Source: Rhodopseudomonas pentothenatexigens
GTDB taxonomy: Bacteria; Pseudomonadota; Alphaproteobacteria; Rhizobiales; Xanthobacteraceae
Reading direction: 5' to 3'
NCBI RefSeq assembly: GCF_900218015.1
Contig: NZ_UFQQ01000009.1
Coordinates: 62,001 to 126,000 of the forward strand
DNA length: 64,000 bases
Made by a program: the position numbers and the translations under genes. The notes under the pieces were generated by a model. That model was not told the origin of the DNA and did no database searches. It saw only the letters and a list, made by a program, of their open reading frames with translations. Below are positions 23,985 to 29,160 of this stretch, piece after piece; within the stretch, counting starts at the first letter, position 1, and each line of letters opens with the position of its first letter.

Positions 23985-24758
23985 ATGCGCCGTCTTGCCG
24001 TTTCCCTGATCGCGTTGGCCTTCGCCGGCGCCGCCCATGCCGAGACCATCCGGGTCGGCGTCACCGCCGGCCCGCACGCCGAGATCCTCGACGTGGTCAA
24101 GAAGGTCGCCGCCGAGCGCGGCCTCGACATCAAGCCTGTCGAGTTCACCGACTACGTGGTGCCGAACCAGGCGCTGGCGCAGAAGGAACTCGAGGCCAAT
24201 TCGTTTCAGCACGAGCCGTATCTGAAGGCGCAGCTCGCCAAGACCGGCTGGACCATCGTCAAGGTCGCCAACACCATCGCGTCGCCGCAGGGCGTGTATT
24301 CGGTCAAGGTCAAGGCGCTCGCCGATCTGAAGCCGGGCGCCACCGTGGCGATCGCCAACGATCCGTCCAACGGCGCGCGCGGCCTGCAGATCCTGGCGCT
24401 GCACGGCCTGATCAAGCTGAAGGACGGCGTCGGCGCCACCGCGACGGTCGCCGACATCATCGACAACCCGAAGAAGCTGAAATTCGTCGAACTCGACGCC
24501 GCGCAGCTGCCGCGGTCGCTGCAGGACGTCGATCTGGTGTCGATCAACAACAACTACGCGGTGCAGGCCGGCCTCGATCCGTCCAAGGACGCGCTCGCCC
24601 GTGAGAATGTCGAGGGCCCCTGGGTCAACATCATCGCGGTGCGCGAGGAAGACAAGGACAAGCCCTGGGTCAAGCAACTGATCGACGCCTATCACTCGGA
24701 CCCGGTCAAGCAGTTCGTCGAGACGCGATTCAAGGGGACGTATATCCCGGCGTGGTGA
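23985..24758 (+). CDS. metQ: D-methionine/methionine-binding protein MetQ
   Basis: A 257-residue NlpA-family receptor. The signal peptide (MRRLAVSLIALAFAGAAHA) ends in a type I cleavage site with no lipobox Cys, unlike the lipoprotein MetQ of E. coli. Family motifs are VGVTAGPHAEILDVVKKVAAERGLDIKPVEFTDY in pieces, QHEPYL, ANDPSNGARGLQIL and LPRSLQDVDL. It completes metNIQ. A second, diverged copy lies at 26560-27345 on the other strand. Confidence 0.93.
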   Translation: MRRLAVSLIALAFAGAAHAETIRVGVTAGPHAEILDVVKKVAAERGLDIKPVEFTDYVVPNQALAQKELEANSFQHEPYLKAQLAKTGWTIVKVANTIASPQGVYSVKVKALADLKPGATVAIANDPSNGARGLQILALHGLIKLKDGVGATATVADIIDNPKKLKFVELDAAQLPRSLQDVDLVSINNNYAVQAGLDPSKDALARENVEGPWVNIIAVREEDKDKPWVKQLIDAYHSDPVKQFVETRFKGTYIPAW

Positions 24759-26559: not shown

Positions 26560-27345
26560 TCACCAGGTGGTGAGAATGGTGCCGTTGAAGCGTTTCTCGG
26601 TGAAGACCTTGACCTCCGGCGAGCGATAGATCTCGACGAACTTCTTCAGCGTCGCGTTGTCCTTGTTCTTGGCGCGGACCGCGAACACCAGGTTCCAGTT
26701 GGTGTCGGCGCCTTCGAGCAGCAGCGCGCTCTTCGGGTCGAGCCCGGCGCTGAGCGCGTAGTTGAGATTGACCGCCGAGAAATCGAGGTCGTTCAGCGAG
26801 CGCGGCAGTTGCGCAGCGTCGAGCTCGACGATCTTGAGCTTCTTCGGGTTGTCGGCGATATCGGCGATCGTCGCCTTGATGCCGATGCCAGGCTTCAGCT
26901 TGATCAGACCGGCTTTTTCGAACAGTTGCAGCGCGCGGGCGCCGTTGGAAGGATCGTTCGGGATCGCTGCGCTGGCGCCGTCCTTGATGTCGCTCAGCGT
27001 CTTGACCTTGTTCGAGTAGAGTCCGATCGGCACGATGATGCTCTTGGCGATCGACACGATGTCGTAGCCACGTTGCGCCACCTGGTTGTCGAGATAGGGC
27101 TGGTGCTGGAAGTTGTTGATGTCGAGATCGTCCTGCGCCAGGGCCGCATTCGGCACGGTGTAGTCGGTGAATTCGGTGATCTTCACCTCGATGCCCTGCT
27201 TGGCGGCGAGATCGCCGGCATAGCGCAGGATCTCGGCGTAGGGACCGGCGGTGGTGCCGATCCGGACCACTTCGGTGCCGAAGGCCGGAGCCGCGGCGGT
27301 GAGTGCGGCGAAAGCTGCCGCGGCGAAAACGAGTTTACGTGCCAT
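26560..27345 (-). CDS. Second MetQ/NlpA-family substrate-binding protein
   Basis: A 261-residue periplasmic receptor with signal peptide MARKLVFAAAAFAALTAAAPAFG and no lipobox. It keeps the NlpA signatures (IGTTAGPYAEILRYAGDLAAKQG, FTDYTVPNAALAQDDLDINNFQHQPYL in order, PNDPSNGARALQLFEKAGL, LPRSLNDLDF). It differs clearly from the metQ product at 23985, so it may bind another sulfur compound or amino acid and share MetNI. It has no permease genes of its own. Upstream lie a palindrome (27447-27466), a short ORF and a Cys-codon leader, suggesting sulfur-responsive control. Confidence 0.88.
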   Translation of the reverse strand: MARKLVFAAAAFAALTAAAPAFGTEVVRIGTTAGPYAEILRYAGDLAAKQGIEVKITEFTDYTVPNAALAQDDLDINNFQHQPYLDNQVAQRGYDIVSIAKSIIVPIGLYSNKVKTLSDIKDGASAAIPNDPSNGARALQLFEKAGLIKLKPGIGIKATIADIADNPKKLKIVELDAAQLPRSLNDLDFSAVNLNYALSAGLDPKSALLLEGADTNWNLVFAVRAKNKDNATLKKFVEIYRSPEVKVFTEKRFNGTILTTW

Positions 27346-27446
27346 GGGAATTCAACCTCGATACGTGACCATCTTGGTGGTCGTGGTTTGCGGGGAAACT
27401 ACCGGCCGCCCGAACCAGCGGCCATTTCGAAATCCGTGACGGGGCG

Positions 27447-27466
27447 AGATCGGGATTTCCCGATCT
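27447..27466. promoter_or_regulatory. Perfect palindrome upstream of second metQ-like gene
   Basis: Nine-base arms AGATCGGGA and TCCCGATCT around TT, no mismatches, about 100 bases upstream of the gene start. It may be an operator or an RNA hairpin in the 245-base gap 27346-27590, which holds no gene. Confidence 0.45.
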
Positions 27467-27590
27467 GCCGTCGTCGCAGAAGATTCGTGTTGCGTGTGCG
27501 GCCCGCGATGCCCGCCGCGCCTTCGCGCTGCGCGCGACGCGAAGGTGGCTTGGGCGCCGTTTGGGTGGCGGGACGCGGTGCCGCTGCTGG

Positions 27591-27782
27591 TTACTGCAGC
27601 CGCGGGCGGACATCTTTCGCGCAGCGGGTCGCGGCCTTCTGGGCGGCGACCAGCGAACCGAACGACTGTCGCTCCAGACTGTTGAAGTCGTGATGGGCCG
27701 CGAAGAAGCAGAACTTGCGTCCGTCCCGGACGACGATGCCGGCGGTGCGGGCGTGAACTTCAATGACGTAAGCGTCGGACAT
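27591..27782 (-). CDS. Small protein of unknown function (63 residues)
   Basis: MSDAYVIEVHARTAG then IVVRDGRKFCFFAAHHDF and SLVAAQKAATRCAKDVRP: a compact sequence of beta-strand-like segments with a helical end, two Cys and three His. ATG 27782 is preceded by GGGAG at ideal distance, and codon choice is GC-rich as in neighbours, so it looks genuine. Longer in-frame extensions upstream lack a ribosome site. It lies between the Cys-codon leader peptide and the second metQ-like gene on the same strand. No function can be assigned. Confidence 0.6.
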   Translation of the reverse strand: MSDAYVIEVHARTAGIVVRDGRKFCFFAAHHDFNSLERQSFGSLVAAQKAATRCAKDVRPRLQ

Positions 27783-27792
27783 GACTCTCCCA

Positions 27793-27805
27793 CTGGCAAA
27801 GCCAG
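27793..27805 (-). promoter_or_regulatory. Hairpin abutting ribosome site of the 63-residue ORF
   Basis: CTGGC-AAA-GCCAG lies two bases from the GGGAG ribosome site (27787-27791) and 49 bases after the leader-peptide stop. In the mRNA it could compete with other structures formed when ribosomes stall on the leader. Inference only. Confidence 0.3.
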
Positions 27806-27853
27806 CGCCTTCTGATCTCTGATGATGTCGGTGGTGTCGAAACGGTGTCGGCG

Positions 27854-28006
27854 TCAGCCGAGGATCATTCGACAGCGACAACAGAGGCCGGAGCGGGGAG
27901 GAGAGAGCCGGGTGGCCGTCCGGGCCGGCGCGGTCGCGCGCAATGCAGTGGTGGTGCGGCGATGCGTGGCAGGTCGTTCAGCAATGATCGAGATGTTGGC
28001 GTTCAT
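27854..28006 (-). CDS. Candidate leader peptide with clustered cysteine codons
   Basis: A 50-residue ORF starting MNANISIIAERP, basic and Thr/Ala/Arg-rich, ending PPRSGLCCRCRMILG. Three of four codons at 27872-27883 are TGT (Cys), the less usual Cys codon in this GC-rich genome. ATG 28006 has GGAG eight bases upstream. The stop is 71 bases from the next ORF. Clustered Cys codons just before a stop, upstream of genes linked to sulfur/amino-acid uptake, are the layout of cysteine-responsive attenuator peptides (known experimentally in mycobacteria). The function here is inferred, and the peptide itself probably has no enzyme role. Confidence 0.55.
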   Translation of the reverse strand: MNANISIIAERPATHRRTTTALRATAPARTATRLSPPRSGLCCRCRMILG

Positions 28007-28130
28007 GAGCCGATCTCCGTCAACAAAGGAGCCCACGAGCCGTGTCGTGGCGCTTTAGCGATTAAACCCGCGGCGCAAGCTGCTCCGTCAAATCCCGCGA
28101 TCCGCGTCAACGAAGGACGTCGGACGAGTC

Positions 28131-28159
28131 AAATCTGCCTGACCTCGATGTGAAGTCAA
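28131..28159 (-). promoter_or_regulatory. Possible sigma-70 promoter for the leader peptide unit
   Basis: On the minus strand, TTGACT (28159-28154), a 17-base spacer and AGATTT (28136-28131). It is 125 bases upstream of the leader ORF. The -10 is imperfect. The rest of the gap 28007-28347 shows no gene. Confidence 0.3.
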
Positions 28160-28347
28160 CGTTCGCGGAAAAATAAGATCGATTTGGCGCGGGATCGCGA
28201 CAACGAGCAAGCGGTGATGTCTGCGCGATCGCGTGGAGAGAAATTTCTGCTGCGCTGCGCCTGTCGCTTGCTTGGCGGAAATCCGGAGGCGACCGGCATC
28301 GACGGCAGAGGCGGTGTGCGAGCAATGATCGGAATCGCAGGTGCCGG

Positions 28348-29160
28348 TCAGGGCTGAGCCGCGGGACCGGACGGTCGTGCTGTCCCGCCCGCAATGCCGG
28401 TACCGTCGGCCGCCGCGATCCCGCTGAAGTCGATCGCCTCTCCGCGCATCCGCGACAACGAGGCGAGCGCGCGGTCGCGATCGCCCTCGAGCAGTTCGCG
28501 GTAGTGGGATTCGGCCGCATTCGGGCGGCGTTGACGGATCGAGCGCAAGGTCGCCGCCATCAGGTCAGCGCTGAGCCGGCGGATCTTGCGGGTCTGATAG
28601 TCGAGCGGCGATTTCCAGATCGTGGTCCACACCGTCTGGTTGGCGAGGTCGGCGAGCAGTTCGACCAGCAACTCGTTGCCGGAACCCCGCGCAATGGTTC
28701 TGACAGCGCGGGTCGTGGTGCGCGCGAAGCCGATCGGATCGTCGATCTCGACACCCGCATTCAGCTCGTCGCAGCGCCGCGCCAGAGTCTCGACGAAGCT
28801 CTCGATCGGCGAGGTCGCCATCGTCCGCACCGCGAGCATCGACAGCGCCGTGCGGACGTTGAACAGATCGGCCACCGACTTCAGCGACAGCGGTTTGACG
28901 TAGGCGCCGCGCCGCGGGTTCAGTTCGACCAGCCGGCGCCGTTCGAGAATGCGGATCGCTTCGCGGATCGGGCCGCGACTGACGCCGAAGTCGCGCGCCA
29001 GATCGAGCTCGACGAGACGCTCGCCGGCCTTGCGGCGGCCGGAGACGATATCGGCGCCGAGTTCTTCGGCGATCTGATCGGGCAGCGTCCGCAGAGAGAA
29101 ACGGCCCGCCGGGGCGCCGTCGTCGTCGCCCACAGCCCTGCGATGGTTTGTCGCTGCCAT
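28348..29160 (-). CDS. GntR-family regulator, FCD (FadR) subfamily
   Basis: A 270-residue regulator. The winged helix lies at ~20-85 (LPDQIAEELGADIVSGRRKAGERLVE, FGVSRGPIREAIRILERRRLVELNPRRGAYV). The all-helical FCD effector domain follows (ADLFNVRTALSMLAVRTMA...). ATG 29160 has AGGAG six bases upstream. It is transcribed divergently from the peptide-type ABC importer/ligase/carboxylase operon, with a FadR-type palindrome in the shared promoter (29221-29238). FCD regulators usually sense organic acids, so it probably represses that operon and itself until the substrate appears. Confidence 0.9.
   Translation of the reverse strand: MAATNHRRAVGDDDGAPAGRFSLRTLPDQIAEELGADIVSGRRKAGERLVELDLARDFGVSRGPIREAIRILERRRLVELNPRRGAYVKPLSLKSVADLFNVRTALSMLAVRTMATSPIESFVETLARRCDELNAGVEIDDPIGFARTTTRAVRTIARGSGNELLVELLADLANQTVWTTIWKSPLDYQTRKIRRLSADLMAATLRSIRQRRPNAAESHYRELLEGDRDRALASLSRMRGEAIDFSGIAAADGTGIAGGTARPSGPAAQP

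Follow-up and report, generated by a model that had tools for sequence, protein, structure and literature searches.

The window analyzed here is a 64,000-nucleotide stretch of Rhodopseudomonas pentothenatexigens DNA, and the features of the locus lie on its reverse strand (Table 1). An earlier reading, made from the letters alone (hereafter the sequence-only reading), had picked out a 50-codon leader ORF with a ribosome-binding site and the tail GLCCRCRMILG, TGT at three of four consecutive codons near its end, a 63-residue ORF downstream with a small hairpin adjoining the ribosome site and, on the same strand, a MetQ-family receptor. Each of these features was confirmed, the leader's Shine-Dalgarno (SD) sequence being GGAG and the receptor being identified by PF03180. 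In codons the leader tail reads CTC TGT TGT CGC TGT CGA ATG ATC CTC GGC TGA, and TGT is indeed, as had been claimed, the uncommon Cys codon (TGT 9 versus TGC 89 in 26 long, GC3-rich ORFs taken from the window, where Cys makes up 0.78% of codons). An alternative in-frame GTG at 28036 would give a 60-aa reading of the leader; the start position kept among relatives is the ATG with its SD, not GTG 28036, although in one genome (G007) the codon at the ATG position is itself GTG. The receptor also matches the MetQ subfamily model of NCBIfam at E 2.6e-68, yet stays under the curated cut-off, and the 63-aa small protein gave no match in NCBIfam and Pfam scans. About 2 kb past metQ, on the plus strand, there is a second MetQ-like gene (24042-24755; 55% identity across 238 aa).

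Table 1. Features of the leader locus, in window coordinates
Feature	Position	Strand	Remarks
SAM-II-like riboswitch element	28028..28104	-	Rfam SAM_alpha sub-cut-off match; genus conservation; model R1
P1 stem of SAM-II-like element	28099..28095 with 28073..28069	-	
GATTTGA motif	28094..28088	-	SAM-II-like element
P2a pseudoknot, GGAGC with GCTCC	28086..28082 with 28032..28028	-	SAM-II-like element
GCTTGC motif	28080..28075	-	SAM-II-like element
CGCTAAAG motif	28060..28053	-	SAM-II-like element
Inserted hairpin CACGA-loop-TCGTG, between CGCTAAAG and 3' pseudoknot strand	28034..28049	-	
SD GGAG of leader	28015..28018	-	GGAGA retained in 12 RNA-bearing genus genomes
Leader ORF, 50 aa, ending GLCCRCRMILG	27854..28006	-	ATG start, 50 codons, TGA
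Cysteine codon cluster TGT TGT CGC TGT	27872..27883	-	Codon reading of leader tail
Leader stop to small ORF, 71 nt, with AGAAGG and hairpin CTGGC-TTT-GCCAG	27783..27853	-	
Hairpin CTGGC-TTT-GCCAG beside small-ORF ribosome site	27793..27805	-	
Small ORF, 63 aa, family without a name, consensus YIIEV..AGIVVRD	27591..27782	-	
Substrate-binding protein of the MetQ/NlpA family, possibly the unit's second gene	26560..27345	-	PF03180 E 9e-86

The sequence-only reading missed a SAM-II-like RNA ahead of the leader. The sole Rfam match in the interval 27300..28400 is to SAM_alpha (RF00521), at 28108..28035 and with 17.5 bits against a gathering cut-off of 36; since the score falls under that cut-off, we term the element SAM-II-like and do not assign it to RF00521. 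The motifs GAUUUGAC, GCUUGC and CGCUAAAG are all intact in the window. Upstream of the aptamer, a candidate promoter (TTGACT-16 nt-CAGATT, 28132-28159, minus strand) can be read by eye and went unreported by the consensus scan. The RNA is present in 12 of the 16 genus genomes (best E 1e-53 to 4e-27), and G001, G009, G012 and G014 gave chance-level matches only (E 0.04 or worse). In all 12 RNA-bearing genomes the leader begins 45-46 nt past the RNA core (46 nt in the window), and from GATTTGAC to CGCTAAAG 11 of the 12 sequences are identical, with upstream DNA and leader body divergent. P1 pairs in 12/12 alignment rows without any variation, and the stem of the inserted hairpin is invariant across the 12 sequences, so that there is no covariation inside it (inserted stems are longer and varied at other loci). 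Covariation in the 12-sequence alignment alone was not significant (82/500 shuffles), and a single-strand fold of the aptamer, computed with a model that excludes pseudoknots, gave no signal (z 0.29).

To collect relatives beyond the genus, we built a model (R1) on 12 elements of the hairpin-inserted kind. At E 0.01 it matched 92 of 391 family genomes and 71 of 297 order genomes (overlapping sets, weak matches counted), and at E 1e-4 it matched 46 of 240 class genomes (weak matches again counted). For detailed comparison we used 99 loci, all with E 2e-9 or better: 12 from the genus, 47 from the family and order, and 40 picked further matches. The SAM-II pocket positions listed in an excerpt of PMC3764141 fall in UUU, UUGC and GCUAAA, and the corresponding motifs.TTTG, CTTGC and GCTAAA are retained in 96, 98 and 95 of the 99 loci, respectively, with all three present in the window. 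An Rfam scan of 24 element-bearing relatives returned SAM_alpha for eight, of which one (L369, 36.8 bits) is the sole relative to pass the cut-off and the others score 22.9 to 31.7.

At these loci the loop strand that precedes AGCUUGC can pair with the one that follows the inserted hairpin, and the pairing takes several compensated forms (GGAGC/GCUCC, GAAGC/GCUUC, GAAGC/GUUUC, GGGAGC/GUUCCC and CCCGGC/GUCGGG). Mean P2a pairing is 11.0 compared with 9.99 (sd 0.29) for swapped partners, a level reached in 4/5000 permutations over 49 distinct pairs with kinship ignored; this test was restricted to loci whose hairpin fits C[AG]CG..CGTG and was redefined after the first result was known. That first, looser test, with an automatic hairpin finder and 53 non-canonical of 85 loci, gave 118/2000. 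Judged by its motifs and candidate pairing, the RNA looks like a variant of SAM-II with a hairpin inserted in the pseudoknot. With the SAM-II riboswitch (RF00521), as described in an excerpt of PMC1273637, it shares the pocket motifs, the sulfur amino-acid genes downstream and, putatively, P1 and a P2 pseudoknot; it differs in having a hairpin before the 3' pseudoknot strand and in being followed by a Cys uORF where a met gene would otherwise stand.

The leader itself is conserved in a particular way. It occurs in 12/12 RNA-bearing genus genomes, at 29-55 aa and with 3 to 6 Cys near the stop, and its bodies are unalignable between clades and its length varies freely. The tails are LCCRCRMILG, LCCSCRMNLG, LLCCCCCRPALD, RCCCCCPRALD, RCCCCCRCTLG, RCFCCPCTLG, LRCCRCRGSLD and LCCRGCRNERG, each followed by TGA. 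The sequence-only reading had named a cluster not conserved in relatives as its refutation, and the outcome was the opposite: a cluster is found in 12/12. The literal LCCRC tail occurs in only 2/12 (G000 and G015), so what relatives preserve is clustered Cys ahead of the stop codon, not that particular string. A protein search of 61 genomes with the leader found, besides itself, only G015, G006, G004 and G003 under E 1e-3 and G010 at 0.005; the RNA is the better probe for relatives. A DNA pattern for the tail matched 38 of the 61 genomes against three single matches of its reversed control, a count we leave out of the argument.

Across the 99 loci, with leaders called from the first ATG, or else GTG, having an SD-like stretch, a short uORF (at most 70 aa) lies behind the element in 91 and a longer ORF in eight. 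The short uORFs give 88 distinct peptides, with at least one Cys in 81, at least two in 57 and at least three in 38; seven have no Cys and many have one. Cys makes up 17.9% of the last 12 codons, compared with 2.3% of the remaining codons; reading this DNA in its other frames gives 3.7%. Counted another way, the last 36 nt hold 178 TGY in frame and 34 and 12 in the other two frames, of 972 positions each (kinship ignored), and TGT and TGC are mixed in 41 of the 57 leaders having two or more Cys. The in-frame bias of TGY and the mixing of the two codons indicate that conservation is at the level of the amino acid. These figures also bear on another explanation, in which TGTTGTCGCTG owes its conservation to a role in the RNA, through pairing or as a protein site, and its Cys reading is incidental. 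GCTGTC is invariant across the 12 genus genomes and similar stretches occur elsewhere (for example at L337), as this explanation would have it; it is nonetheless very improbable in our judgment, given the rarity of out-of-frame TGY, the interchange of TGT and TGC, and the fact that Cys runs arise from different sequences in different families.

The leader peptide might also act by its sequence, as an arrest peptide or as a metal- or redox-binding Cys microprotein. A tail S-A-A-T-G-x-C, possibly an arrest motif, is common to the leaders of L283, L290, L293, L342, L197 and L200, which represent several genera, and endings in C-R-R or C-R-P are frequent. Set against these, Cys number (one to six) and spacing vary, the bodies cannot be aligned, and some peptides are as short as MTRLRC and MTCCCP, so we think a sequence-dependent peptide distinctly improbable.

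Canonical SAM-II loci served as a control, which upholds the difference in layout but not an argument from Cys content. In the 20 of 30 such loci that could be parsed, an ORF of 397-413 codons begins 85-95 nt downstream. Chance ORFs start here from a GTG at +15 or +16, and six short ones contain 17 Cys in 256 residues (6.6%). Because chance ORFs are Cys-rich too, overall Cys content is a poor test, and it is the frame and tail-position tests that carry the argument. Among class-level loci, 25 of 29 could be parsed at the core, and by eye 14 of these have a Cys uORF, four a Cys-free uORF and seven a longer ORF. Leaders at this level end, for example, in MTCCCP*, ILCCCR* or DGCCCCN*, and some of the longer ORFs are, we presume, similar to met genes.

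Starting from the small protein instead of the RNA leads to the same pairing. Among 63 loci encoding its relatives, 14 have a Cys-cluster ORF upstream; the reverse strand gave one among the 63, and dinucleotide shuffles lead one to expect 0.70. Thirteen loci have both the RNA and a Cys ORF, one has the RNA only (L218), one a Cys ORF only (L223) and 48 neither, an association with a Fisher p of 1.8e-11 (kinship ignored). A second type of Cys leader, with SCCC or SCC before the stop, precedes the same small-protein family at L170, L173, L182 and L171, and no SAM-II-like core was found upstream of these four. G000:C44 (L186), read by eye, is perhaps a case of this second type in the window's own genome. 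Two further loci, L134 (G000:C41) and L167 (G012), encode proteins about 75% and about 85% identical to the 63-aa protein, and upstream scans of both show neither the SAM-II-like RNA nor a Cys-cluster leader.

As for what is controlled, the sequence-only reading had named the small ORF and the MetQ-like gene as one unit. The first half of this stood: the small ORF is found at 12/12 genus loci, beginning 70-140 nt past the leader stop and preceded by an SD-like AGGAG or AGAAGG and then a hairpin. MetQ, at nine of the 12, is not constant, which makes the small ORF the constant partner. MetQ was not found in the stretches fetched for G002 and G007, and in G005 (L128) it is a 43-aa remnant with the RNA, Cys leader and small ORF intact. 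Relatives of the 63-aa protein occur in 110 of 248 family genomes, and the leader stop codon begins 63-90 nt ahead of the small ORF in 37 of 43 loci.

The small-protein family stands behind the element in 66 of the 99 loci. At the remaining 33 we typed the gene by the largest ORF within reach, a choice of our own. The best matches there are MetN at 16, MetQ at three, TauA at three, and a sulfate ABC ATPase (CysA-like), CysG and a cysteine desulfurase at one each; five match PF03601, one a luciferase-like monooxygenase and two nothing. The TauA, CysG, sulfate ATPase subfamily and desulfurase matches are above the NCBIfam curated cut-offs, and the MetN and MetQ ones are best matches below them. 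Behind the small ORF itself we found MetQ (L299), MetN (L300, L309), SsuA (L307) and O-acetylhomoserine sulfhydrylase (L328), but also DusA (L293) and a KefC-like transporter (L317), with nothing at L314. The synteny with sulfur genes that had been suggested as a check is thus borne out: the arrangement recurs before metN, metQ, tauA, ssuA, cysA-like, cysG, metY and cysteine desulfurase genes. The RNA, the in-frame Cys cluster and the sulfur-gene context are conserved together.

The recurrence of the RNA-leader pair before sulfur genes in so many relatives suggests a two-signal sulfur switch. The order would be a SAM-II-like riboswitch variant, then a Cys-codon ORF, then the regulated gene, which would be the 63-aa ORF and perhaps metQ too. 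The riboswitch would report SAM and gate translation of the leader; when charged tRNA-Cys runs short, a ribosome would stall at the Cys codons and expression of the downstream gene would rise. On these comparative grounds we consider it probable that a SAM-II-like riboswitch gates a Cys-codon leader, the two forming a two-input sulfur sensor, and the original proposal of a Cys-codon attenuator is supported as a part of it.

Six Hyphomicrobium-type loci (five from Hyphomicrobium; the sixth, L266, from a Hyphomicrobiales MAG) all have both the RNA and a Cys ORF. The element here is compact, lacks the inserted hairpin and contains the SD of the leader (AAGGAG or AAGGAA). In our own assignment of P2a, GUUC fully pairs with GAGC, GAAC or GAGU in five of the six and forms three of four pairs in L264; an Rfam scan of L263, L264 and L268 gave no match. 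Because the leader SD overlaps the proposed pseudoknot in this type, SAM would be expected to turn off the leader. The same layout is described for the SAM-II riboswitch of Sinorhizobium meliloti metA, where the SD lies inside the riboswitch and the P2 pseudoknot should hinder ribosomes (PMC9373788, in excerpt). The S. meliloti riboswitch differs in that it serves metA itself, by way of an in-frame AUG 74 nt downstream, and the excerpt makes no mention of a Cys leader there (PMC9373788). In the hairpin-inserted type of Rhodopseudomonas, SAM might act with either sign.

Control of the downstream gene is more likely translational than exerted by an intrinsic terminator. A scan of 27300..28300 found none between leader and small ORF, and the sole terminator-like site in that interval is the inserted hairpin, which precedes the leader and is at chance level (1 versus 1.1 expected). 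An anti-SD 5' of the Cys codons that could pair with the small-ORF SD was seen by eye, and masked folding gave it no clear support. With a ribosome masked at the Cys codons, the stop or other codons of 43 loci, SD accessibility was 0.198, 0.177 and 0.223, respectively (p 0.11). The cost of opening the start region at 40 loci was lower with a ribosome at the Cys codons than with none (p 0.002) or with one at the stop (p 0.04), and lower still with one at other codons. RNAalifold on the leader-to-ORF region of 12 genomes produced no informative switch. A swap of GCUCC between aptamer and leader SD, also noticed by eye, fits in Rhodopseudomonas and G235; over 65 loci, complementarity of leader SD and pseudoknot strand was 10.51 compared with 10.61 for swapped partners, with 3431/5000 permutations as high.

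That folding models gave no clear switch, and that some elements have no Cys uORF (the eight longer ORFs among 99 loci and the seven among 25 parsed class-level loci), is what one would expect if the riboswitch alone regulates and the Cys uORF, as a mere by-product or spacer, senses no cysteine. We consider this unlikely. It does not account for the in-frame bias of TGY and the mixing of TGT and TGC, Cys clusters persist in leaders that are otherwise variable, and RNA-free Cys leaders precede the same small-protein family (L170, L173, L182).

The gated Cys-codon leader, to return to the reading we favor, can be extended further. The leader might be a coincidence detector, widespread in alphaproteobacteria, that senses SAM with a SAM-II subtype bearing the inserted hairpin, senses charged tRNA-Cys with the Cys-codon uORF gated by that riboswitch, and controls sulfur import and a new family of 60-70 aa proteins. 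In this extended form SAM would act with a lineage-dependent sign, OFF in Hyphomicrobium and possibly ON in Rhodopseudomonas, where the pseudoknot strand GCUCC could instead pair with the leader SD GGAG. We put forward the extension tentatively and are slightly more inclined to doubt it than to accept it.

Both parts have known counterparts. In mycobacteria and other Actinobacteria, polycysteine leaders (PMC1262725, in excerpt) likewise have a Cys run near the stop, sulfur genes after it and no obvious terminator. By comparison, the leaders described here have an SD and a SAM-II-like RNA in front. The mycobacterial polycysteine leader was reportedly characterized by Canestrari in 2020 as leaderless. 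Closer in phylogeny is uORFC-8-2 before cysS of the Rhodobacterales, an alphaproteobacterial tandem-Cys uORF for which ribosome-mediated attenuation has been proposed; it differs in having one target gene, stems that hold the Cys codons, an intrinsic terminator and no riboswitch, as far as an excerpt of PMC8632094 describes it. A term search of the main text of PMC9481103, on tandem riboswitches, found neither 'leader peptide' nor 'cysteine', and among the literature matches listed no title or abstract opening concerned the pairing of a SAM-II element with a Cys leader. Two known kinds of sensor are probably joined here in a new combination, which is conserved and larger than the sequence-only reading had supposed.

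With riboswitch and leader ORF in series, one mRNA leader would compare SAM and cysteine, two end products of sulfur metabolism, and the arrangement would amount to a logic gate open to direct testing. It is found in many genomes of many families and was mostly missed by the Rfam model, which illustrates how members related to a known riboswitch class can escape notice when a hairpin has been inserted. It also draws attention to an unnamed, sulfur-linked family of small proteins.

Two groups of genes behind the elements deserve a brief mention. PF03601 proteins (Cons_hypoth698, role unknown according to the Pfam entry) follow the elements at L288, L290, L296, L331 and L342. At L366 (G538), the element is followed by a family-2A encapsulin cargo cysteine desulfurase, and the leader tail there is MRCCPCCC.
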